Of a DNA stretch of 54,453 nt, positions 4,901 through 49,454 are shown piece by piece; position 1 is the stretch's first letter, and every line of letters starts with the position of its first letter. The translations under genes and the position numbers were made by a program. The stretch lies in IMG/VR virus record IMGVR_UViG_3300046455_000446, positions 1-54,453 of that record. The stretch is one strand, 5' to 3'. This DNA comes from a virus. A model generated the notes under the pieces. The model was not told where the DNA came from, made no database searches, and saw nothing but the letters and a program-made list of their open reading frames with translations.

Positions 4901-6522
4901 TTACTCGCCGCCAAACGATGGACGCCATTAGTGGCTATGGCGATTTCAGGCAACTAACCAAGGACGAAATCAGTGTGAAGTTGCGTGACCTTAAAGGTCA
5001 GATGCAGCAAGTGGCCAAGTTGGAGGACATGCAAGCTGGCCGTCCACCGCTCAAGACCGGATTGGAGCGAAGAATACCAAGCCCAGAAGAAAGCCGTCTG
5101 ATTAAGCTGGTCAATGATGCCAAGAACGAGTTTCAAGTACCAATTTCTGACCCAAACACGCAACTGAAGTCATCACTGGACACGCTGAAGACTCGGATGA
5201 AGAACCGCCGTGTTGAGTTGGAGGGGATGCTTGCCAGAAAAGAGTTCGCCCGCAAACCCAAGCGCACAGTCCAGATGGACCCCGAGGCAAACCGTCTGCA
5301 TTTCGAGATGTCCAAGGCCAAGGCTGCCTGGCATGAAGCCATGATGAAGGACAGGCTGGCCAATCGAAGTGTGCCAGCAAAGATTTTCGGTTATGGAGCC
5401 GAGTTGCTGAACACAGCCCGCGCAATCAAGACCAGCGCAGACCTTTCCGCCGTGCTACGACAGGGCGGCTTCATAGCTTTTGCTCATCCCATCAGAGCAG
5501 CCAAGTCATTTCCAGCCATGTTCAAGGCTTTCCGGTCTGAGGCCGGCCAACATGCCGTCAACGAGCAGATAATGGCTCGAAAGAATTATCCGCTCTACAA
5601 CCAGTCAGGGCTTTACCTGTCCGAGCATGGCCAGAAACTGTCTCAGATGGAGGAAGCGTACATGGCGAGATGGGCCGAGAAGATTCCATTGGTGGCTGGC
5701 TCTCAGCGGGCCTACGTCACCTTCCTTAACAAGCTTCGGGCAGATTCATTCGATGCCATGGCTAACTCTCTGGCCCGGAGCCGGGAGTTAACACCCAATG
5801 AGGCCAAGGTAATTTCCAACTTCATCAACGTGGCAACTGGCCGTGGTAACTTTGGGATGAAAGACAACGCCCTGGTCGGCCTGAACACCGTTTTCTTTGC
5901 ACCGCGTTACGTTGCCAGCCGATTTCAATTGCTGGCTGGACAGCCCCTATGGACACGCAAAGGCGCCTACGAGGGCACTGGCGCCGCCCGGGCTCAGGTT
6001 GCCAAGGAATACGCCCGCTTCCTTGCCGGTGCCGCCGTGGTCTATGGTTTGGCCATGATGGATGGGGCTCAAGTTGAGAACGACCCACGCTCAACCGACT
6101 TTGGGAAACTGAAGTACGGCAATACAAGGGTTGACCCCATGGCCGGATTGCTCCAAAACACCGTCCTATTGTCCAAACTGACCAGTGGAGAGAAAAAGAC
6201 TCTGAGAGGAAAGGTTGTCCCCCTGCGAGGACCGAAAGTCCCATACGCTGGAGAAACCATTCCCGACACACTCATGCGCTTTGGCCGCACGAAGCTCAGT
6301 CCTGCGTTTGGAACCGGCGTAAACATCCTGGCTCAAAAGGATTTGGTCGGACAGCCAGTCACTGTTAAGTCCGAGCTTGGAAACATGCTCACACCGCTGG
6401 CTGCATCCGACATTTACAAGGCGCTTCTTGACCAAGGGCTGGACCGTGGCGCCGCCCTGTCTATCCTGTCCATCTTCGGCATGGGCTTGCAGACTTACGA
6501 CGCGAACAAATCCAAGCAATGA
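1906..6522 (+). CDS. Giant internal virion / DNA-ejection protein, 1538 aa
   Basis: The N-terminus (residues 3-28) has the acidic motif ending in DDEIQAIL that often opens large phage internal proteins. Residues 70-170 contain apolar segments that could insert into a membrane. Residues 200-480 are Pro/Ala/Glu-rich linkers, and residues 530-1130 are long charged helices. Residues about 1160-1530 look like the C-terminal domain of large polyvalent phage proteins: an apolar segment near 1365-1385, an FGRTKLSP motif and a final FGMGLQTYD. I see no lysozyme or protease catalytic motif. It is the largest gene and ends the virion run. It is most likely packaged in the head and ejected with DNA. Confidence 0.85.
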   Translation: MPSQIIQVGDEELEFPSEMQDDEIQAILSREYRTPKTSIGPTETSFESTGPADFQFEPADILGESVRQLPDFQATTRGGPRLQLPEANVAAQSALGELGGVAGDVLTHPSPIPTPFPEIAKDENPFVAAGKEVVNLAVGVPQFFTTTPGIAAAGGATVAPGLVSGLFTADLLKTLGKQIKDTYSNWSNMTGAQKAIAVTDLIGTGAFAALTAKHAGKSALDFAEQNVPRGTGISPEQPPLTPEDIYAGPQPSSESVLEPEVRARLDEETRIRQQGETPEPRPPADVGGDVVPIEEAPPPAPEVAPELPPLIPGDRLVTIRRADGTEYTAAYSDKAWDINGEQVPAISRAKDGAWSTGGLEPGEAIIEQTPPAKPPPADYTGEPGEVAVTGEELQQPKPPAGQFITVPAGNAPPVEPAPVEPVKRQPLNMAGQVRQKRAPFAGPPAFETLHPKSQERFNAAWEAKDGPAMVQLLDIANKGLRGEFAKRTGIKLPNTQGGTKATVESWAKGAFDKTAQPTPPPATPAQAAGKVQEQVKAELKSAEEHTSKAAVEAEKAVVAWATHVEDVVNPLKAKIRKIQSEVGQMAADARRTKPEVKGKQHLTKKKFLEQYGVATMDEANSLYKSKNAEWADLEKQLEEAESKRKELEATKERRSKEWSSAATRAGELRRTVFPKVREGDVGQPTPAAAPSPAVKPVEGESPIGMGGAVPSEFEQQPGTATSIKNAIVDKERAARGLPAAMQPARRTFQQVWDQTMAKIDHDPGYQDRLLTELEKKSRALTDGEDAALLHRQIDLQNEYGKATRDLAQAFEDGRTDAVAAEQARVQALSDQLLRVYEVGKKVGTETGRGLAARKMMALEDFSLAKMELDKRMAKGGRPLTPDERAEVVRLNKKIEDTQKAFDDYVAATEARDSERAIKEALGQVEAEAKKSKPGKQKPTGDVKADVTEKIRTRVAEGEQASITSLVQKLARAFIESGVRGRDALIDAVHEVLQEIIPGITRRQTMDAISGYGDFRQLTKDEISVKLRDLKGQMQQVAKLEDMQAGRPPLKTGLERRIPSPEESRLIKLVNDAKNEFQVPISDPNTQLKSSLDTLKTRMKNRRVELEGMLARKEFARKPKRTVQMDPEANRLHFEMSKAKAAWHEAMMKDRLANRSVPAKIFGYGAELLNTARAIKTSADLSAVLRQGGFIAFAHPIRAAKSFPAMFKAFRSEAGQHAVNEQIMARKNYPLYNQSGLYLSEHGQKLSQMEEAYMARWAEKIPLVAGSQRAYVTFLNKLRADSFDAMANSLARSRELTPNEAKVISNFINVATGRGNFGMKDNALVGLNTVFFAPRYVASRFQLLAGQPLWTRKGAYEGTGAARAQVAKEYARFLAGAAVVYGLAMMDGAQVENDPRSTDFGKLKYGNTRVDPMAGLLQNTVLLSKLTSGEKKTLRGKVVPLRGPKVPYAGETIPDTLMRFGRTKLSPAFGTGVNILAQKDLVGQPVTVKSELGNMLTPLAASDIYKALLDQGLDRGAALSILSIFGMGLQTYDANKSKQ

Positions 6523-7954: not shown

Positions 7955-8865
7955 ACAAGAGTCTTTCGATAGCCTACATCACTGCGCGTGATAATCCTGA
8001 GTTCGACTGGTTTCTGGACAGCCTGAAATTGCAGGTCAAGCCAGAGGACCAGATTGAAGTCATCATCTGCGATTTGTTTTACTCAAGGCGACCCACGGCA
8101 ATTGATACGACCAAGTATCCATTCAAGATTATCCATTGCGCACCTAAACCCTGCATTTGGCAAGGTGAACAGCGCATCACTAAACAAGATTGGTGGGCAA
8201 AATCGAATTCGACAAATACTTGCATCTGTCGTGCGAGCCATGACTGGCTGGCCTGTGTGGATGACCGCTGCGTGCTCATGCCTGGATGGCTGGACGCCAT
8301 TGACCGGGCCATGCAGGGCGGCTACATCGTCTGCGGCACCTATGAGAAGCACACAGGGATGCAGGTTGAGAATGGCCAAATAATAAATCCGGGCGCCTTG
8401 ACTGGCGCCGACCATCGCCGCTCCTCCTGCAATGGAGAACTGATGCAGTGCTACGGCCAGTGGTTCTTTGGCTGCTGCTTCGCGCTGCCGCTGGAAACGG
8501 CACTGGCAGTTAACGGGTTTTCTGAAGCTCTTGACGGACTGTCGTCGGAAGATACGCAGTTCGGCTCTATGTTGGAAGCCAACGCATTCAGGATTTTCTT
8601 TGACCCGAAATTCCAAATCATCGAGGACCGCACACCGGGGCTCTGTGAGCCAGCCATGCGCCGGGAATCTAAGGAAAAGAAGCCCAATGACCCAAAAGAC
8701 AAAGGGCATGAGGCAATCAGAAGGTTCTACGGCCGCAGGGAAACTGACAACCCATATAGGATTCGGGAATTGAGGGAGTCTATTCTGGCAGGAGCCGACT
8801 TCCCGCCAGTAAGAGGAGGAGAGCACCGAGACTGGTTTGACAATATGCTTATCTCTGAGATGTGA
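7951..8865 (+). CDS. GT2-like glycosyltransferase, 304 aa
   Basis: This looks like a GT-A fold nucleotide-sugar transferase. The N-terminus SIAYITARDN starts the fold. VDDR at 103-106 stands in the metal/nucleotide-binding DXD position and is followed by a PGWL stretch. The later FGCCFALP and SSED stretches (about 170-205) match the acceptor-side ED motif of GT2 enzymes. It is coupled to the FkbM gene (ATGA) and followed by a small gene. The donor sugar cannot be told from sequence. Confidence 0.75.
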   Translation: MNKSLSIAYITARDNPEFDWFLDSLKLQVKPEDQIEVIICDLFYSRRPTAIDTTKYPFKIIHCAPKPCIWQGEQRITKQDWWAKSNSTNTCICRASHDWLACVDDRCVLMPGWLDAIDRAMQGGYIVCGTYEKHTGMQVENGQIINPGALTGADHRRSSCNGELMQCYGQWFFGCCFALPLETALAVNGFSEALDGLSSEDTQFGSMLEANAFRIFFDPKFQIIEDRTPGLCEPAMRRESKEKKPNDPKDKGHEAIRRFYGRRETDNPYRIRELRESILAGADFPPVRGGEHRDWFDNMLISEM

Positions 8866-30176: not shown

Positions 30177-30450
30177 CGAATGTCTGACTCGGCCAGTCCT
30201 GCGGTTTTCCATCAAGGATTGCACCTATCACCTCAGCATCGTAGCGATTAGCTTTTCCAAACTCGGCTACCACACAGTTGTATCGGCGCATATAGATGCA
30301 CCATACTCCATCTTTGCGTTGCTTCACGGCATATGGAGAGGCCACTGAACCCGGCGCTGGAACGAATGAGCTTGCGCTGGGAGGTTTTCCGACCGGCTTG
30401 CCGTCGCCGTGAACCTTCTGCCCGTCGGGTGTAGTGTAGATTCCGCTCAT
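30136..30450 (-). CDS. Hypothetical early protein, 104 aa
   Basis: Contains an SSFVPAPGSV segment encoded by a 28-base repeat shared with the gene at 30569-31057, and a YDAEVIGAILDGKP middle. A strong AAGGTG ribosome site precedes the ATG, in a context repeated upstream of that same gene. Unknown function. Confidence 0.6.
   Translation of the reverse strand: MSGIYTTPDGQKVHGDGKPVGKPPSASSFVPAPGSVASPYAVKQRKDGVWCIYMRRYNCVVAEFGKANRYDAEVIGAILDGKPQDWPSQTFDENPNLQRGKQPQ
30347..30374. repeat. 28-base in-frame repeat, copy 1
   Basis: Identical to 30954-30981. In both genes it encodes the same SSFVPAPGSV peptide in the same frame. Confidence 0.95.
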
Positions 30451-30568
30451 CGTTCACCTTGGTCGTTATGCCTCACAGGAGCGCCCCCTGTGATTCCTCG
30501 CGCTTGATTCGTTCGACGGCGACCGCGAACCCCGCGAGTCCAAATCCGTTGGCGACGGGTCTTTCATC

Positions 30569-31057
30569 TCAGTCGTTAGGAACCGGGTGGGTCATCCGCA
30601 AGTGTTCAACTGCCACATGCAGGCCATGCGCCACCCCGTCGTGCCAGTGATACCATTTGTCCCCTTGCGCGAGCGCGTCTCGCTTCGCTTCTTGGGTTTT
30701 CTTTTCTTCCAAAAGGTCTGCCGCAGGTGAGCTTGATTCGTTAGGCGAATCCGCTTCGAGTATGGCCCGCGCCATCCACAGGGCTGCCCATTCATCTGGC
30801 GTGAGGCTGTTTCCCGGGCAGGTTGCTCGCAGGTCGTCTGCCCTGCATTTTGACGCGATTTCGAGCGCTGGGATTATTTCAGCAAGTGTTTCCTTGGTTC
30901 GAGCAGCCTCGGTGAAGTATGCGTCGCGCTCTCGTATTGCATCATCTATCACCGAACCCGGCGCTGGAACGAATGAGCTTGGCTGTGGGCATTGCGGGCA
31001 TCGCACGAACCCTTGATAGTCATGCTCGTTACAGGCGTATTGGAGTGGCTCGCTCAT
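30569..31057 (-). CDS. Zinc-knuckle early protein, 162 aa
   Basis: N-terminal CNEHDYQGFVRCPQC (two zinc pairs) precedes SSFVPAPGSV, then a long helical charged region. The DNA encoding the shared segment repeats that of the 104-residue gene downstream. ATGA coupled to the gene at 31054-31230. Role unknown. Confidence 0.6.
   Translation of the reverse strand: MSEPLQYACNEHDYQGFVRCPQCPQPSSFVPAPGSVIDDAIRERDAYFTEAARTKETLAEIIPALEIASKCRADDLRATCPGNSLTPDEWAALWMARAILEADSPNESSSPAADLLEEKKTQEAKRDALAQGDKWYHWHDGVAHGLHVAVEHLRMTHPVPND
30954..30981. repeat. 28-base in-frame repeat, copy 2
   Basis: Identical to 30347-30374. See that entry. Confidence 0.95.
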
Positions 31058-31230
31058 GGTTCACCTTGGTCGTTCGGCGACACTTCACAGCGCGACATTC
31101 GACATAGAAGTCCATGAGGTGTTTTGTGTCGCACATACACGTCCACTGACCCATCCCCTCCTTTTGGTATGCAGATGCGAACGCGCCGCCCGCAGGCGGT
31201 ACAGGTCGCCGAACGCGCTGGAACGTTCAT
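31054..31230 (-). CDS. Small zinc-knuckle protein, 58 aa
   Basis: CTACGRRVRICIPKGGDG and CRMSRCEV give two cysteine pairs. I chose the ATG at 31230, 13 bases after the YqaJ stop. Longer frames from 31470 overlap that gene entirely. Probably an accessory of the recombination cluster. Confidence 0.55.
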   Translation of the reverse strand: MNVPARSATCTACGRRVRICIPKGGDGSVDVYVRHKTPHGLLCRMSRCEVSPNDQGEP

Positions 31231-34016: not shown

Positions 34017-34211
34017 TCAATCCTGCCAGTCAGGGTCAGCTTCAAGTTGCGCGATGAGCTTCTTGCTCAGATTGGCCACGGTATCGTTGCCGCGGATGCC
34101 ATCACTGGCCTTCTCGCTCGGGCACGGTCCGTAGCCGCACCAGACGATTGTTTCATCGCCGTCCACGGTGTCGGTTAGCTCGTGGTCGCACGCGGGACAC
34201 TTAGCGTTCAT
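34017..34211 (-). CDS. Small zinc-ribbon protein, 64 aa
   Basis: CPACDHE and WCGYGPCPS form a four-cysteine zinc ribbon like those of Lar-type restriction alleviation and other early phage proteins. A GGAGGG ribosome site lies about 9 bases before the ATG. It is the first gene of the leftward early operon and follows the structured leader at 34240-34336. Confidence 0.65.
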   Translation of the reverse strand: MNAKCPACDHELTDTVDGDETIVWCGYGPCPSEKASDGIRGNDTVANLSKKLIAQLEADPDWQD

Positions 34212-34239: not shown

Positions 34240-34336
34240 GACAGTCCCGCTGGCCAGCTATGGTCGGCAACGCAGAACGCCTGACGCGGTTTCCCGCACC
34301 AGCAGGACTGTCAAATGTGGACTTACTAACCATAGC
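34240..34336 (-). ncRNA. Pseudoknotted RNA leader, copy B
   Basis: On the minus strand a 14-base stem (34299-34312 with 34240-34253, one G-U pair) encloses a GCGG-GAAA-CCGC hairpin (34286-34297). The loop segment ACCATAGCT pairs with AGCTATGGT just upstream of the stem, making a pseudoknot. The arrangement and much of the sequence repeat in copy A at 41775-41892, with compensatory changes in both helices. It lies in the 5' leader of the operon carrying ERF and exonuclease. Confidence 0.75.
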
Positions 34337-34434
34337 TTAAGGCGACTTTACACCCGCCTGTGTTCGGGGCAACAACAATCTTCCCCCTCTTACAGATTGT
34401 CGCGTTTACGCTGCCGGTCTTGGATTTTGCGGCG

Positions 34435-34925: not shown

Positions 34926-35093
34926 AAATAAGTGTTGCGTTTGGTTTAGCGTTGTGGCCAACTCCATCTGCCGACCGCAATCGGCCAAAGCAAACGAAAT
35001 GCACGATTCAACTCCCCAAACGAGCCGCCTGCCGGGTTTCCTAAGTTTGCACCCATTGCGGGCGGGCGGTTCGATTGGGCAGTGGGGTCGTGC

Positions 35094-35954
35094 ATGAAAC
35101 GATTCACGGAAACCAATAAGTGGCGCGATCCGTGGTATCGGAAACTCACCAGCCCGGCCAAACAACTTTGGGAATATCTACGCGACAACTGCGATGCAAT
35201 CGGCCTCATCGAGATAGACCTCACACTTGCTGGGAGTGATTGCGGGCAGAAGATAAATGAATCTCACCTTTCCGAGCTTGGGGACAGAGTTCAAAGCATC
35301 GGTCCGGGGCGTTACTTTCTCCCGAAGTTCATCCGGTTTCAATACGGAGAACTTACGGCAGCGTGCCCACCTCACCGTCCTATAATTGCTCTCGTTAAGG
35401 CGCATGGATTACTTAGGGTAGGCTTACACTACGCTTACCCTAACGGAAGGGTAACGCTACCCTTAAGACAAGACAAGACCGGACAGGAACAAGACAAGAC
35501 TGGAATGGAAGAGGGGGTGCAGGGGGAGACTGCGGTTCGCCCATCGCTCAAAGAAGTCTTGGCGGTCGCTGACTTCATCGGGTTGGCCGCATGGAAAGCG
35601 GAGGACTGGTTTCAGGAGATGCAGGGCTGCGGCTGGCTGGACTGGAATCATCGGCCCGTCGTGGATTACCGGGCGAGCCTTGCAAGGGTTCGGACAAAGT
35701 GGGAAGCGGACGGTCGCCCGTCTGGGCCTCCAGCGAACAGGTCAACCACGAATGGAAGCGCATCGCTGACTCGCCCAATGGACATTAAGGCGGTTATCCA
35801 GGCCAAGGAACTGAGAGCTGTTGAAATAAAGAACAAGCATTGCTCAGAGACGGCTATGGATTCGATTTGGACAAGCTCAGAGGACAAGGCGGAATACTTC
35901 GCAATCAAGCGTGAGATAAAAGCACTCAACACGAAACTCAGCAACCTCGCATGA
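35094..35954 (+). CDS. Phage replication initiator/replisome-organiser-like protein, 286 aa
   Basis: The N-terminal 90 residues (NKWRDPWYRKLTSPAKQLWEYLRDNCDAIGLIEID) match the winged-helix start of O-type replication proteins that recognise the phage origin. A disordered linker and a C-terminal part with the GWLDWNHRPVVDYRASLARV helix follow. Such proteins recruit a host helicase. No phage helicase or polymerase is recognised, so replication probably depends on the host. The 156 bases upstream hold no gene and may contain origin repeats. Confidence 0.7.
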   Translation: MKRFTETNKWRDPWYRKLTSPAKQLWEYLRDNCDAIGLIEIDLTLAGSDCGQKINESHLSELGDRVQSIGPGRYFLPKFIRFQYGELTAACPPHRPIIALVKAHGLLRVGLHYAYPNGRVTLPLRQDKTGQEQDKTGMEEGVQGETAVRPSLKEVLAVADFIGLAAWKAEDWFQEMQGCGWLDWNHRPVVDYRASLARVRTKWEADGRPSGPPANRSTTNGSASLTRPMDIKAVIQAKELRAVEIKNKHCSETAMDSIWTSSEDKAEYFAIKREIKALNTKLSNLA

Positions 35955-36846: not shown

Positions 36847-37118
36847 TTGCCCAACTCAAACCCTTCGATTTCACAGAGCGCCCAGCGGGGCACTCATTTG
36901 CCGCATCTGGTGGTTCGGCCACATGGCCGCGTGAGTGGGTCTGTAAAAACTGTGCGTGGTGCGCCACAGAAAATCCAAAAGCCACGCACATCTGGTGTCG
37001 GGCTTGGAAACGTAGCTTCCGGGCAAATTCAGATCGCATGTGCTACGAAGAACCAATCGAAATAATGCGACAACGGAAAGCTCTAACAGCCTATGACCCC
37101 ACCACAACCCACCACTGA
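36834..37118 (+). CDS. Small zinc-site protein, 94 aa
   Basis: CKNCAWCATENPKATHIWC supplies four cysteines. Unknown function. It overlaps neighbours by 13 and 26 bases. Confidence 0.6.
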   Translation: MSAMIAQLKPFDFTERPAGHSFAASGGSATWPREWVCKNCAWCATENPKATHIWCRAWKRSFRANSDRMCYEEPIEIMRQRKALTAYDPTTTHH

Positions 37119-37275
37119 CGAGCAACTGCAAGCCCTGCGCGCGGAGTTTGAGGAGTATTGGCTGACCTGTTTGCAGAGAGTCAAGATGATAACGATTAAA
37201 GCAGACGCGTTATCGGTCGCCAAAGATCACTGCTGGCGAAGCTGGCTGCACGCGAAAGGGGTTTCAGACAAGTGA
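37093..37275 (+). CDS. Small hypothetical protein, 60 aa (paralogue of 37360-37542)
   Basis: Shares the TDEQLQALR-EFEEYW and CWRSWL-AKG segments with the next gene, so this is a tandem duplication. The DNA also shares a 28-base identity (37112-37139 with 37373-37400). Confidence 0.6.
   Translation: MTPPQPTTDEQLQALRAEFEEYWLTCLQRVKMITIKADALSVAKDHCWRSWLHAKGVSDK
37112..37139. repeat. 28-base duplication within paralogous genes, copy 1
   Basis: Identical to 37373-37400. Part of the tandem paralogue pair. Confidence 0.9.
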
Positions 37276-37359: not shown

Positions 37360-37542
37360 ATGAGCGAACAACCCACTGACGAGCAACTGCAAGCCCTGCG
37401 CCGAGAGTTTGAGGAATATTGGGCGACGTGCCTGCCGAGCATGTTGACCGAGATAATGACCCGGACGCCATTTGAGCTTGTGCGGATGCGGGATCGCTGC
37501 TGGCGAAGCTGGCTGTATGCGAAAGGAGCGGTGGAGAAATGA
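37360..37542 (+). CDS. Small hypothetical protein, 60 aa (paralogue of 37093-37275)
   Basis: From ATG 37360 (MSEQPTDEQLQALRREFEEYW). Diverges mainly in the middle. The 84 bases between the two paralogues hold a second near-copy of the GGCAACACGGAAAACA stretch near 36808, suggesting that a longer unit was duplicated. Confidence 0.55.
   Translation: MSEQPTDEQLQALRREFEEYWATCLPSMLTEIMTRTPFELVRMRDRCWRSWLYAKGAVEK
37373..37400. repeat. 28-base duplication within paralogous genes, copy 2
   Basis: Identical to 37112-37139. Confidence 0.9.
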
Positions 37543-41538: not shown

Positions 41539-41772
41539 TCAGTTGCTGTGTCCCCAAATCCTGACCTGTACGCGCTTCCAATAATTCGCCATACTCTCGG
41601 CAATCCACTTCTGGAACTCCTCCTGGTTGCCATTCCACGCCTCAAGACTTTGCGTCTTTAGCAGCCCGCGCAGATAAATCATCGGCTGCGCTTGTTCCCC
41701 ATTTTCCAACTCAAGATGCAGCGTTAACCGCTGGTTGAACTTGTCCCGCTGTTCCATCGTAGGCTTACTCAT
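41539..41772 (-). CDS. First gene of leftward early operon, 77 aa
   Basis: A small acidic-to-neutral helical protein (SLEAWNGNQEEFQKWIAESMANYW). It follows directly on the pseudoknotted RNA leader, with AAGGAAGGA 11 bases before the ATG. Function unknown. Confidence 0.6.
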   Translation of the reverse strand: MSKPTMEQRDKFNQRLTLHLELENGEQAQPMIYLRGLLKTQSLEAWNGNQEEFQKWIAESMANYWKRVQVRIWGHSN

Positions 41773-41900: not shown

Positions 41901-41930
41901 AGATTAACCCACACGTGCCGAGTCGGTCAA
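41901..41930 (-). promoter_or_regulatory. Leftward early promoter candidate
   Basis: TTGACC (41930-41925) and TAATCT (41906-41901) with an 18-base spacer lie directly before the RNA leader. They fit a sigma70-type promoter with a start near 41894. Confidence 0.5.
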
Positions 41931-45459: not shown

Positions 45460-45592
45460 GGCTGACTCTAGGCTGTCACTTTGCTTCGTTTTCAGAGACT
45501 AACCGTTATCCTCATTGGGGGGACTGTCAACTGAAGGATGGGTTACAGAACAGAGACAGCAACCAAACCAGACTGGACTTGAAGCCCTTGTT

Positions 45593-46073
45593 GTTTCGGT
45601 TCAGGTCGGTTGCCATAGCAACCCCTGGATGGAGTTGCTATGGCTCTTGAAGACTCGTTGTTTTCGGACGAGGTTCGGAGCTTTTCGTGTCCCTCGGCTC
45701 ACAGGCTACCAGCCGCAAACCTCTAGCCCTTACGCGGGCACGACACATAGCTGCCGTGGTAGTTACGCCATAGTGGCGCCACGGCTTTTTAACCCACCCG
45801 GTTTCTAATCCAGTGGGCGTGATTGTCGCTGCGGTTCAATCTATCCGGCTACCCGGAGCCAAATCAATAATGGCTGGCAACGCTCGGTTCAGACGATTGG
45901 AAAAGAAACACCGTACCTGTTTTCACAGATACGGCGGGACGACTCCCGCTTTGATAAAACACCCAGCAGCGCCGGGCAACCCTTCAACGGGTTGAAGCAA
46001 GCAGGAATCTAAATTGGCAGGCTTTTGTTTTATCATTTGAGTCGTTCACATCCCTTCCACGGGCTGAACAAAC
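45593..46073 (+). ncRNA. Large structured non-coding RNA candidate
   Basis: No gene fits in 45460-46104. Perfect hairpins occur at 45612-45644 (11-base stem), 45753-45785 (7 plus 5 pairs, then TTTTT), 45911-45934 (5 plus 4 pairs), 45934-45949 (6 pairs) and 45977-45994. Long-range pairs GATAAAAC/GTTTTATC (45953/46027) and GTTT..GTTCAG/CTGAACAAAC (45593/46064) close the domain. The latter spans about 470 bases. The strand is probably plus because of the T-tracts. Size is like the ornate phage RNAs of the ROOL/GOLLD type, but I cannot assign a class. Confidence 0.6.
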
Positions 46074-46344: not shown

Positions 46345-46991
46345 GGGATGATAAATAGTTGTTCGCTTGTGCTTTTAGGGAATACGCGAACCGTCCCTTC
46401 CGTCTGCGGGACCAATTCCAAATCGTTTTCAACCTCATTGCCCCAAGTTGACCAGCCATGCCTTTTTCTCCGTGCAAACATTTCCATATATGGCCCGGGG
46501 CTTACAGATTCCACCATGTTTTGAAAGGCTTCCGGCTTGGCAGAGTGCTTTGGGTATCCATTCTCGTATTGTCGCTTCCAGTTCCACCACGTCCCGGTGA
46601 CGCGCTTCTTGGCTGCCAGAGAACCACGCCTGCAGAACAAGATGTATTCAGTTGAAATTCCATACGTCCCTCCCAAACCACCACCAAATGGAGCCTTGGC
46701 CCATACTAGCATGGTTGATGGTTCAAACCCCCACGCTCGAGCCACTTGGTACGTGTCCTCTATGTAGTGATTAATTGTCCAGATATACAGGTGTGCGTCT
46801 TTCTCAGCTCTTTCGCTGACTGGAAGCGAACAGATTTCCTCTACAGTCAAAGTGGGGTACTCTAATTCTCGGCTAGGGCGACTTATGGAATCCCACACCT
46901 GCTTTCCATCGCCGTTTACATTATAGCCCGCACCCGCTGGTCCGGCTTTAACTTCCCACGGCGGGTCAGCCACGATGGTTTTGTATTTCAT
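46341..46991 (-). CDS. MT-A70 family DNA adenine methyltransferase, 216 aa
   Basis: DPPW at 9-12 is the MT-A70 catalytic motif. The ending and the HLYIWTINHY, FCRRGS and AFQNMVESVSPG stretches match phage and bacterial members that methylate N6-adenine. It overlaps terminase by 4 bases, so it may modify DNA before packaging. It is the third DNA methyltransferase of the genome. Confidence 0.8.
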   Translation of the reverse strand: MKYKTIVADPPWEVKAGPAGAGYNVNGDGKQVWDSISRPSRELEYPTLTVEEICSLPVSERAEKDAHLYIWTINHYIEDTYQVARAWGFEPSTMLVWAKAPFGGGLGGTYGISTEYILFCRRGSLAAKKRVTGTWWNWKRQYENGYPKHSAKPEAFQNMVESVSPGPYMEMFARRKRHGWSTWGNEVENDLELVPQTEGTVRVFPKSTSEQLFIIP

Positions 46992-48805
46992 GCCACGGAT
47001 TGGAGTTCTTTGCCTTTCATCATGCGTTCGTAGTCCTGCGCAAACTTTTCCAGCCAGTCCTTGCCACGCTTCGGGTCAGCCTTGGGGTTGCTGAGCTTGG
47101 CAATCTGGAAGCCACGGCGGCGGGCGCCTTCGATGGCGGTCGCAAGCTGGTCGGTGCGGTCGGGGCTTTTGCCGGTGCGCTTCTTCATCTCGTGCTTGGC
47201 CTCGATTTCAATGAGGTTGCTCCTCACCATTTTCCACTCGCGCGCCACTGCGTCATTCAAAATCTCTTCAGTCATTCCGCAGAGTTGACCTGACTCGATG
47301 GCGTACCGGATGGAGAACCACAACTCGGTCACAAACTTTGAGTAATGTTCGCTACACAGCTTCAGTCTGGACTCGCCGGTGATGGCGTCCACAACTTTCA
47401 GGTCCAGCGACACTGGCCGTTCAGTTGGACGCGCGCCGAAATCAACCGGGTTGGACTTCCCGTGCCAGAGGCGCGCGAACGCAGCCATCAACATCGTGCG
47501 ACCATCAAAGAAAACATTCTCCTCATCAATATCCAACGACTCGCACTCCTGTTTTACAAACAGCGCAATCTGGTCATCGGGCGGAATCCCGGACAGGGCT
47601 GAAATCGGGATGATTTTCTGAGGCCCGATGTAGAGAATTTCCTTTCCGTTCAGGTCCTTTCCAAATTCTATCCAGCCGCCCACGCACAAGTCGCCGCCCA
47701 CAGAGCTATACGCAGCATCTATGGCATAAATTTTCGTCGTTCCCGTCCCGTGCCAGATGGGCAACCGGAACGCATCGAATTTGACGCAGATTTCCCGCGT
47801 GATGACCTTCCGTGCCGTCAATCCCTGCACGCGAACCCCGAGAATCATGGAACAGTATTGCTGTGAGCCTTCGCCGTACGACTCGCGCACCATCTTTTCC
47901 TTGAGCCGGCCAACCATGTAGCCAAAACGGTCAGGCCGGTCAGCCGGAAAGTCCCAGTTTGGACTATCGAGTCCTGGAAGATTCAGGCACACACCATCCA
48001 TGTACTTCGTCGGCCATGAAATTGTCTTCTTGGGGATGCCGATGGTGGACCAGCCCTCCTTAGGCTCGCTCACTTTGTCCAGCGGGTCATTTTGAGCGAG
48101 CGGATTTCCCAGAAAAACAAACTTGGCGAAGGCGTTGTTGAGAAGGTTCGGCACCGCGTCCAAAAGAGAGAGCTGCATCAGTTGCATCTCGTCTGCGATG
48201 AGCATGACGCGCTGATTATGTATACCAATAAATTTTCCGAGGCCCACAAAACCACCACTCGATGACAGACACGGAATACAGGTGATACCATGGCGTTGGT
48301 CCCGCGTCCCAGTCTCGTCAATATCATCCGTGGCAATCATTTTCTTGGAATCAATCACGTTGCCCGGGAACCAATCGAACCTGTCCTTCGCATGCTCAAT
48401 CAATTCTTTGATGCGACCGAACACACGCATCTCCAGCCCGCGTAGGTCCGTGCTGGAAATCAGAATCGTGGTGCCGGTCGGCCACACACTGTAAAAGCAC
48501 AGCGCAAACTTTGCGGCCGTGGAAGTTTTGCACGAGCCAGAGCAGCCCATGATGGTCGTGAACTGATTGGACAACACTGCGTCCAGAATTGCGTCCTCCC
48601 AGCGGTTCTCATCTTCATCGCTCCAGTAGAGCCGGAACAGGCGCTTGTAGTGAAAGAACAAACCACGCCCGAACGTGCGACCACCTTCGGTCCACTGGCC
48701 GCCCTTGCGTATCATGTGACACTCAATCTGCGCATCATCCATCTCCAGCGGAAAGGCCAAGCCGTAGCGAGAAGTTTTGGTCGGAGCAGGAGCAGCAACT
48801 GGCAT
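46988..48805 (-). CDS. Terminase large subunit, 605 aa
   Basis: The ATPase has GCSGSCKT at 87-94 (Walker A), MLIADE at 201-206 (Walker B and catalytic Glu) and FLGNP at 231-235 (coupling motif). The nuclease domain begins with YAIDAAY at 360-366 (D363). It packages DNA into the procapsid through portal. The Walker A is slightly unusual (Cys before and within the loop). Confidence 0.85.
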   Translation of the reverse strand: MPVAAPAPTKTSRYGLAFPLEMDDAQIECHMIRKGGQWTEGGRTFGRGLFFHYKRLFRLYWSDEDENRWEDAILDAVLSNQFTTIMGCSGSCKTSTAAKFALCFYSVWPTGTTILISSTDLRGLEMRVFGRIKELIEHAKDRFDWFPGNVIDSKKMIATDDIDETGTRDQRHGITCIPCLSSSGGFVGLGKFIGIHNQRVMLIADEMQLMQLSLLDAVPNLLNNAFAKFVFLGNPLAQNDPLDKVSEPKEGWSTIGIPKKTISWPTKYMDGVCLNLPGLDSPNWDFPADRPDRFGYMVGRLKEKMVRESYGEGSQQYCSMILGVRVQGLTARKVITREICVKFDAFRLPIWHGTGTTKIYAIDAAYSSVGGDLCVGGWIEFGKDLNGKEILYIGPQKIIPISALSGIPPDDQIALFVKQECESLDIDEENVFFDGRTMLMAAFARLWHGKSNPVDFGARPTERPVSLDLKVVDAITGESRLKLCSEHYSKFVTELWFSIRYAIESGQLCGMTEEILNDAVAREWKMVRSNLIEIEAKHEMKKRTGKSPDRTDQLATAIEGARRRGFQIAKLSNPKADPKRGKDWLEKFAQDYERMMKGKELQSVA

Positions 48806-48806
48806 T

Positions 48807-49454
48807 TTATTTGTGGGTCGGTTCGGTTAATGCACGCTCAACACTGTAACCGTGCTTTAGACGATAGAGCAACGTCTGAACGTGAATTTTAACTTCCCTT
48901 GACCACTGCATGACGGTCTGGGTCTTTCCGTTGAATTCAAGCAGGCGATTGTTGGTTTTATTGTTTGCTTGCATCTCATCAGTGCCCCACCGCACGTTGC
49001 CGGGCTCATAATTTCCGAGTTTGTTTGGGAAGCGGTCAATTGACATTCCTTCAGGCCTATCTCCAATCTCAGACAAGATGTCGGACACAAAATTTGGAAA
49101 TGAATTTCGCCATCGGTTACACATCTTAATTCCAATCCCTCCGTAGAGCGGATAATCTTTACAATTTGGATTACAAGTTCTGTCTATAATGTGTGTCCAA
49201 GTACCGTAAAGATGATGTTTCGTGGCTCTGCTTGCAAAACCGTGTTTGAAGTTTCTCTGAATCTTTAACTCCTTATCATAGCAGCCGCACGACTTGGTGT
49301 TTCCTGAAATAAGTCTGCCCGTATCAAGATAAGTAATGCCTCCGCATTTGCACCTGCATTTCCAGAGAGCTTTGCCGTGTTTTGATGAGCCACATCGTTC
49401 TTCAACGATTAACCAGAAGAACTGTTTTCCAACCAATTGACTTGCTGCTGCCAT
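48807..49454 (-). CDS. HNH-type endonuclease with N-terminal zinc module, 215 aa
   Basis: Residues 7-60 are the GKQFFWLIV/CRCKCG/SCGCYD module, 80-160 the HNH core (YGTWTHIIDRTCNPNCKDYPLYGG, GMSIDRFPNKLGNYEPGNVRWGTDE), 165-210 a NUMOD-like HTH. It is a free-standing homing endonuclease upstream of terminase, related to 23614-24312. Confidence 0.8.
   Translation of the reverse strand: MAAASQLVGKQFFWLIVEERCGSSKHGKALWKCRCKCGGITYLDTGRLISGNTKSCGCYDKELKIQRNFKHGFASRATKHHLYGTWTHIIDRTCNPNCKDYPLYGGIGIKMCNRWRNSFPNFVSDILSEIGDRPEGMSIDRFPNKLGNYEPGNVRWGTDEMQANNKTNNRLLEFNGKTQTVMQWSREVKIHVQTLLYRLKHGYSVERALTEPTHK

Follow-up and report, generated by a model that had tools for sequence, protein, structure and literature searches.

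The stretch of DNA analysed here, which we call the window, has 54,453 bases and makes up an entire virus record of IMG/VR. Its minus strand carries two copies of a structured leader, A and B. Each has a predicted promoter ahead of it and, behind it, the opening gene of a run of leftward genes. From 5' to 3' both consist of the first strand of a helix P1 (8-9 nt), a 16-nt loop strand L1, the 5' arm of a helix P2 (13-14 nt), two inner hairpins P3 and P4, the return strand P1', 3 nt, and the 3' arm of P2, after which come the ribosome site and the ATG. P1 and P2 thus interleave as a pseudoknot, with the 5' strand of P1 near the predicted transcription start, and P3 is capped by a GNRA-type loop. 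Copy B occupies exactly 34240-34336, as an earlier note on this DNA had it. When aligned as pairs with copy A, its P1 joins 34336-34329 to P1' at 34264-34257; L1 is 34328-34313, P2 joins 34312-34299 to 34253-34240 with 3 nt separating P1' from P2', P3 is 34297-34286 with a GAAA loop, and P4 is 34281-34266. Downstream lie UUUUAACUUUU, then GGAGG, then the ATG at 34211. The first ORF of this operon (34017-34211, minus strand, 64 aa) has no family, and further minus-strand genes encode an Erf-like annealing protein (33406-32636) and a RecE-like exonuclease (31927-31244). The same operon also contains two segments repeated at 607-nt spacing (30343-30476 and 30950-31083), with identities of 97% and 85% over 32-33 nt.

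Copy A, which we aligned and scored by energy, runs from 41892 to 41798 on the minus strand. P1 pairs 41892-41884 with 41822-41814, L1 is 41883-41868, P2 pairs 41867-41855 with 41810-41798, and the inner hairpins lie within 41854-41823. The start codon is at 41772 and opens an ORF of 77 aa (41539-41772, minus strand) with no family. The earlier note had extended this copy to 41775 and so took in GCTACGG (41781-41775, minus strand), which is the 5' strand of P1 occurring again at the ribosome site of the first gene; it is complementary to P1' with a stacking energy of -14.7 kcal/mol. Consensus matches place a predicted promoter for copy B at 34345-34372 (minus strand; TTGCCC-16-TAAAGT), with a start about 2 nt ahead of P1, and one for copy A at 41902-41930 (minus strand; TTGACC with either GTTAAT at spacer 16 or TTAATC at spacer 17), with a start about 3-4 nt ahead of P1. 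TTGACAGTC, the sequence that opens P2 in both copies, occurs again at 45530-45522. Close by, the noncoding region 45460-45830 holds a long inverted repeat on the minus strand at 45612-45644, GCCATAGCAACTCC..GGGGTTGCTATGGC, possibly another structured RNA.

The earlier note had proposed that A and B share one pseudoknot architecture, and alignment, descriptor and shuffle tests all agree with this. Folding of single sequences, which cannot represent P1, recovered P2 and the inner hairpins. An ungapped descriptor search of the window recovered copy B, and six shuffled windows gave nothing comparable; copy A was passed over solely because its span falls under the distance limit of the descriptor. 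Scored by energy against 1,000 shuffles of its own leader, each copy reached p=0.001, the floor of the test. In the alignment of A with B the four helices comprise 30 pairs, and all 58 of the counted cells are paired. Five pairs have changed on both sides (one each in P1, P2 and P3 and two in P4) and none is broken, in line with the compensatory changes that had been claimed; P2 in A is also shorter than in B by one whole base pair, missing from both arms. Sliding the partners by 1-3 columns left at most 56% of cells paired and at most one double change. The letter-shuffle control is weak for this pair (24/500), since it has two sequences to work with, and independent families were therefore needed. 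Covariation was strong evidence of selection on the RNA structure, as the earlier note had argued, once such families had been found.

That note spoke of an element occurring twice. A and B are real, and the count is too low: two further probable copies stand in the window, and the architecture is widespread in relatives. Copy C (34976-35073, plus strand; p=0.005 against shuffles of its own leader) lies before a rep-type gene with its ATG at 35094. Its P1 pairs CGCAAU (34976-34981) with AUUGCG (35055-35060), its P2 pairs 35021-35033 with 35061-35073, and there is a possible loop contact between GCAAAC (34990-34995) and GUUUGC (35045-35050). Copy D (49550-49463, minus strand; p=0.004) lies before an HNH-terminase operon whose ATG is at 49454. 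Here P1 pairs UGAUAC (49550-49545) with GUAUCA (49486-49481), an extension pairs CCAGAGA (49538-49532) with UCUCUGG (49496-49490), and P2 pairs 49519-49504 with 49477-49463. Because about 39 leaders of the window were tested, the case for C and D depends on shared architecture and location no less than on the p-values; copy D was also recovered (E=0.086) by R2, a model built from the leaders L129, L131 and L024 of other phages. A weaker candidate, E (40160-40066, minus strand), precedes the ORF 40045-39743 inside the copy-A gene run and has no assigned promoter; its combined score (p=0.001) comes mostly from P2 (40139-40124 with 40081-40066), and its P1 includes three G-U pairs. The element thus stands at at least two, and probably four, operon starts of this phage, in three unrelated sequences. 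Copy B heads the operon with the Erf-like and RecE-like genes and copy C heads the rep-type gene, which makes it plausible that the leader coordinates recombination and other early genes, as had been suggested. Elsewhere in the window, the rightward genes behind copy C include a duplicated coding segment (37112-37178 and 37373-37439, 85% identical over 67 nt). A large minus-strand protein (46988-48805) with the look of a terminase-like ATPase has distant tblastn matches to actinophage terminases and was unrecognised by Pfam and PHROGs; the structural genes of this phage are very divergent.

Searches by sequence agreed with the earlier view that the leader matches no named class. Rfam 15 at curated scores gave no match in the whole window or in nine positive loci, and a permissive Rfam search of copy B gave nothing beyond chance scores. 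BLASTN of both leaders against phages returned no real match, and exact leader patterns in IMG/VR returned none either, apart from one chance match in a sequence unlike the leader. We found no description of such a phage leader in the open-licence literature. The covariance-model search that the note had proposed brought no homologues at the level of sequence: model R1 had no match when run on 40 of the related contigs, on four records of MAGs or genomes, or on 388 genomes from a single bacterial phylum. The Erf and terminase proteins and one unassigned operon protein reached no close relative when used as baits. The rep-type protein (35094-35954, plus strand), whose gene lies behind copy C and adjoins copy B, was the bait that led to related phages. 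Its sole homologue found in an isolate, a weak one, is in Pseudanabaena phage Pan5, and alignments begun from these two proteins and extended in successive rounds reached hundreds of uncultivated phage contigs and 16 bacterial contigs, with related genes in one Verrucomicrobia MAG and others in Bacteroidetes and elsewhere.

When these contigs were searched by architecture alone, the same interleaved helices were found directly before genes, often before the same rep-type gene. The relatives include L005, L010, L028, L113/L096, L118, L119, L024/L129/L131 and L045/L046, and further L148, L161, L174, L205, L246 and others. One of them, L161, on a Chitinophagaceae MAG contig, has two candidate leaders, at 8189 and 10997, the first directly before the rep-type gene. 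Between families, BLAST comparison of the leaders found no shared sequence, and leader models do not detect other families, the weak exceptions being copy D and L033 with model R2. The L033 match (5765-5876, E=0.026) lies upstream of a 168-aa ORF, and the P1 that can be drawn there is a short one of 5 bp. Architecture has been kept and sequence has not; the conserved feature is therefore the architecture.

How far chance could account for such a pattern was judged on 2,178 noncoding leaders in which P2 ends at most 60 nt from the AUG. The first descriptor lists were rich in hits to coding DNA, and we kept noncoding leaders before start codons; bulged-duplex scoring was too permissive, so ungapped helices were kept. 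Scores of -38 or lower came from 15 real leaders, where a shuffled set gave 0.9; at -40 or lower the figures were 13 and 0.3, and at -44 or lower 9 and 0.1. Copies A and B are among the real leaders counted, as are, probably, a few false hits. Chance dominates at looser scores (67 real against 29 shuffled at -28 or lower), and leaders of moderate score are not all real. A reverse-complement control with no 60-nt limit gave 15 against 5 at -38 or lower, and none of 150 leaders from the control phages Pan5, lambda, HK022, D3 and T7 scored -36 or lower.

Covariation recurs in three further, independent families. In L129/L131/L024, whose helices were concatenated (MAFFT misplaced a gap in A8), all 28 pairs are paired and nine have changed on both sides, a count matched in 1 of 500 shuffles and falling to at most one when the partners are slid. 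L113/L096 has three double changes and one broken cell, and L045/L046 has a single double change, which lies in P2. Three families show covariation within P1 as well: A/B, L113/L096 and L129/L131/L024. Pooled with A/B, the four families hold 17 double changes, 11 single changes and one broken cell, and the intermediates are G-U in 12 cases against A-C in one (p=0.003), although the comparisons within the L129 family share one sequence and are not all independent. Such an excess of G-U places the selection on the transcribed strand.

These data bear on whether ordinary terminators, inverted repeats acting in the DNA as operators, or chance have been mistaken for an RNA structure. Moderate scores are frequent by chance and other terminator-like hairpins precede AUGs, but repeated two-sided changes, the asymmetry of the intermediates and the want of high scorers in control phages make this very improbable. 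Furthermore, predicted promoters precede P1, which puts the hairpin inside the new transcript. The asymmetry between G-U and A-C also led us to reject a DNA-level palindrome. The data show the helices, the covariation of their pairs on the transcribed strand and a position directly before start codons, and the leader does stand at the starts of operons, as the note had stated, both before the gene runs of the window and in relatives.

Twenty-two leaders, chosen by score and by eye, were used to describe the architecture. P1 has 6-14 bp and P2 8-22 bp, the gap between P1' and P2' is 0-4 nt, and L1 is 11-47 nt long and 44% A, its length tracking that of P2 (Spearman 0.49, p=0.02). L1 may also form a kissing contact with the loop of an inner hairpin. 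To the eye this is striking in L129, L024, L113, L028, L174 and copies C and D, but its significance is modest (combined p of 0.003, with five of the 22 below 0.05). Transcription is predicted to start at -8 to +1 of P1 in 15 of 25 leaders, with promoters of perfect spacing at L005 and L148; these are guesses from an E. coli-type consensus. Directly behind P2', a U-tract (at least five U in 8 nt) follows in 16 of 21 curated leaders, compared with 2.7-8% of background 8-mers, which is the stem and immediate U-tract of an intrinsic-terminator attenuator. It is missing from copies A and C, L005, L010 and L118. Start codons lie 4-28 nt past P2. In copy A and in L045/L046, all of which are without a U-tract, the 5'-strand sequence of P1 is repeated at the ribosome site, which makes two independent cases.

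A U-tract is not specific to the pseudoknot. Among strong hairpins before an AUG it follows 20 of 48 with a P1 and 8 of 38 without, so that it is not tied to the pseudoknot, and we rejected it as a mark of this structure; its role in the leader is suggested by enrichment. L064, L069, L172, L187 and L224 have terminator-like long-loop hairpins with U-tracts just before the AUG and no P1, and leaders with a hairpin may be a more general trait of these phages.

A promoter, a structure of about 85-125 nt and then a U-tract could also describe a small RNA independent of the operon, equipped with a promoter and a terminator and lying there by coincidence. We consider this quite improbable: several leaders have no U-tract, and start codons so close downstream leave no space for a separate operon promoter. 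Alternatively, P1 might tie up the 5' terminus and shield the mRNA from decay by RppH/RNase E or RNase J, with no switching. The place of P1 at the predicted 5' end, a shape that is kept while sequence is free, and the occurrence before several unrelated operons would suit such a stabiliser, which we nonetheless regard as unlikely, because it would account neither for the U-tract, nor for P2 lying so near the start codon, nor for the P1 repeat at the ribosome site.

The leader works somewhat like several known RNAs and, on the features tested, is a member of none of their classes. In T4 gene 32 the leader pseudoknot, to which the gene's own product binds, is separated from the start codon by 67 nt (PMC3014915). 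As in T4, T2 and RB69, the phage mRNAs described here carry an H-type pseudoknot in the leader close to a replication or recombination gene, with an A+U-rich stretch ahead of the ribosome site. They differ in that P2 comes to 4-28 nt from the start codon and is often followed by a U-tract, in having inner hairpins, and in recurring with differing sequences before unrelated operons of one phage. Nor is there control of an SSB gene as in gene 32: A and B are each followed first by a small ORF, unrelated and without a family match, and the other copies precede rep-type and HNH-terminase genes. A phage annealing, replication or packaging product could still bind the pseudoknot and repress or autoregulate translation of its operon, since copies precede the operons of an Erf-like annealing protein, a rep-type protein and a terminase, and since the best known phage leader pseudoknot, that of T4 gene 32, acts through gp32 in this way (PMC3014915). 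However, A/B, C and D differ completely in sequence within one phage, so that one protein would have to read shape alone; the downstream genes also differ, and no unpaired motif is conserved. We therefore think such an operator rather unlikely.

In IncI/IncB/IncL-M plasmids a pseudoknot in the rep/repZ leader is described as a molecular switch for the replication initiator. Copy C and many relatives similarly precede a rep-type gene, whereas A, B and D precede other operons. The IncI/IncB-type switch depends on two further parts, a leader peptide and an antisense RNA directed at the first stem-loop, and neither was noticed here. A third likeness is to putL and putR of HK022, which are nascent RNAs just behind an early phage promoter and occur more than once per phage (PMC9378689). 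If the leader were a put-like RNA, it would fold, stay on the polymerase and cause later terminators to be ignored. Its location and its more than one copy per phage fit, and put needs no protein (PMC9378689). Yet put consists of two adjacent stem-loops of about 70 nt with conserved sequence, no pseudoknot being mentioned in that account (PMC9378689), most of the present leaders themselves end in a terminator-like hairpin, and terminator-like sites inside the operons of the window show no excess (14 found, 15 expected). Polymerase modification of this kind seems unlikely to us, and membership of put was rejected, since in A, in B and in relatives the helices P1 and P2 are interleaved and both of them covary.

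Riboswitches with pseudoknots, among them preQ1, SAM-II and guanidine-III, likewise combine a 5' leader, a pseudoknot and a terminator or ribosome-site platform, but they keep a conserved ligand-binding core, whereas these leaders have no conserved unpaired sequence. Conservation of architecture and not of sequence speaks against a sensor that holds a metabolite in a conserved pocket. HDV-like ribozymes share the order P1-P2-P3-P1'-P2' with P1 first. We rejected this class on geometry, as the joint between P1 and P2 is 11-47 nt and P2 is 8-22 bp, and the 0-4 nt between P1' and P2' leave no space for the HDV joining strand with its catalytic C; no ribozyme matched at the Rfam threshold.

Altogether our results point to an undescribed RNA switch controlling phage genes. 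We tentatively favour, at somewhat less than even odds, a cis-acting leader at the 5' end of the mRNA that gates the operon behind it, with P2 as the off-element and P1 pairing as the on-element. Transcription would start at P1 or a few bases upstream, as the predicted promoters suggest, and the polymerase would then make L1 and the 5' arm of P2, followed by an inner hairpin or two and by P1', with the 3' arm of P2 coming directly behind. P2 would act as an intrinsic terminator and in any case as a hairpin beside the ribosome site, while P1, at the free 5' end, would pair with P1' beside P2' to complete the pseudoknot and turn the operon on, perhaps by delaying P2 during RNA synthesis. In leaders without a U-tract (copy A and L045/L046), P1 pairing may keep P1' off the second copy of P1 at the ribosome site. 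The two kinds of ending would resemble the two expression platforms of known attenuators. We infer the termination, the direction of the switch, its on/off assignment and its trigger. P1 and P2 are compatible on paper and no mutually exclusive alternative fold was identified, so how P1 opposes P2 is a guess. A free sequence in a fixed shape agrees better with a mechanical cause, such as the timing of folding or the accessibility of the 5' end, than with a pocket for a small molecule.

One mechanical form of such gating, which we hold to be improbable, is a new RNA class defined by topology and acting by topological antitermination. The nascent 5' end would lock P1 to P1' immediately before the polymerase releases the 3' arm of P2; winding of P2 would then need the polymerase to be passed through a closed loop, and the terminator would fail until P1 opens. 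If this were true, shortening or capture of the 5' end would turn the operon off, and the agents of the off-switch would be the choice of start site, a helicase or a phage protein acting on the 5' end.

Classes of structured RNA are normally found by sequence-anchored alignment, which a leader class with almost no shared sequence would escape. Across a large group of uncultivated phages these leaders open operons for replication, recombination and packaging, and they pose a testable question, whether a 5'-end pseudoknot decides between termination and readthrough. A 2010 review considered gene 32 to be possibly the sole case of a viral pseudoknot used in translational autoregulation (PMC3014915), and a widespread phage leader pseudoknot would accordingly be notable even with a simpler mechanism. 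Among the control phages, the top scorers, still below the study threshold, were the leaders directly before the S holin gene of lambda (L250) and HK022 (L251), where interleaved 12+12-bp inverted repeats end 2 nt from the AUG and form a possible pseudoknot at the S ribosome site.
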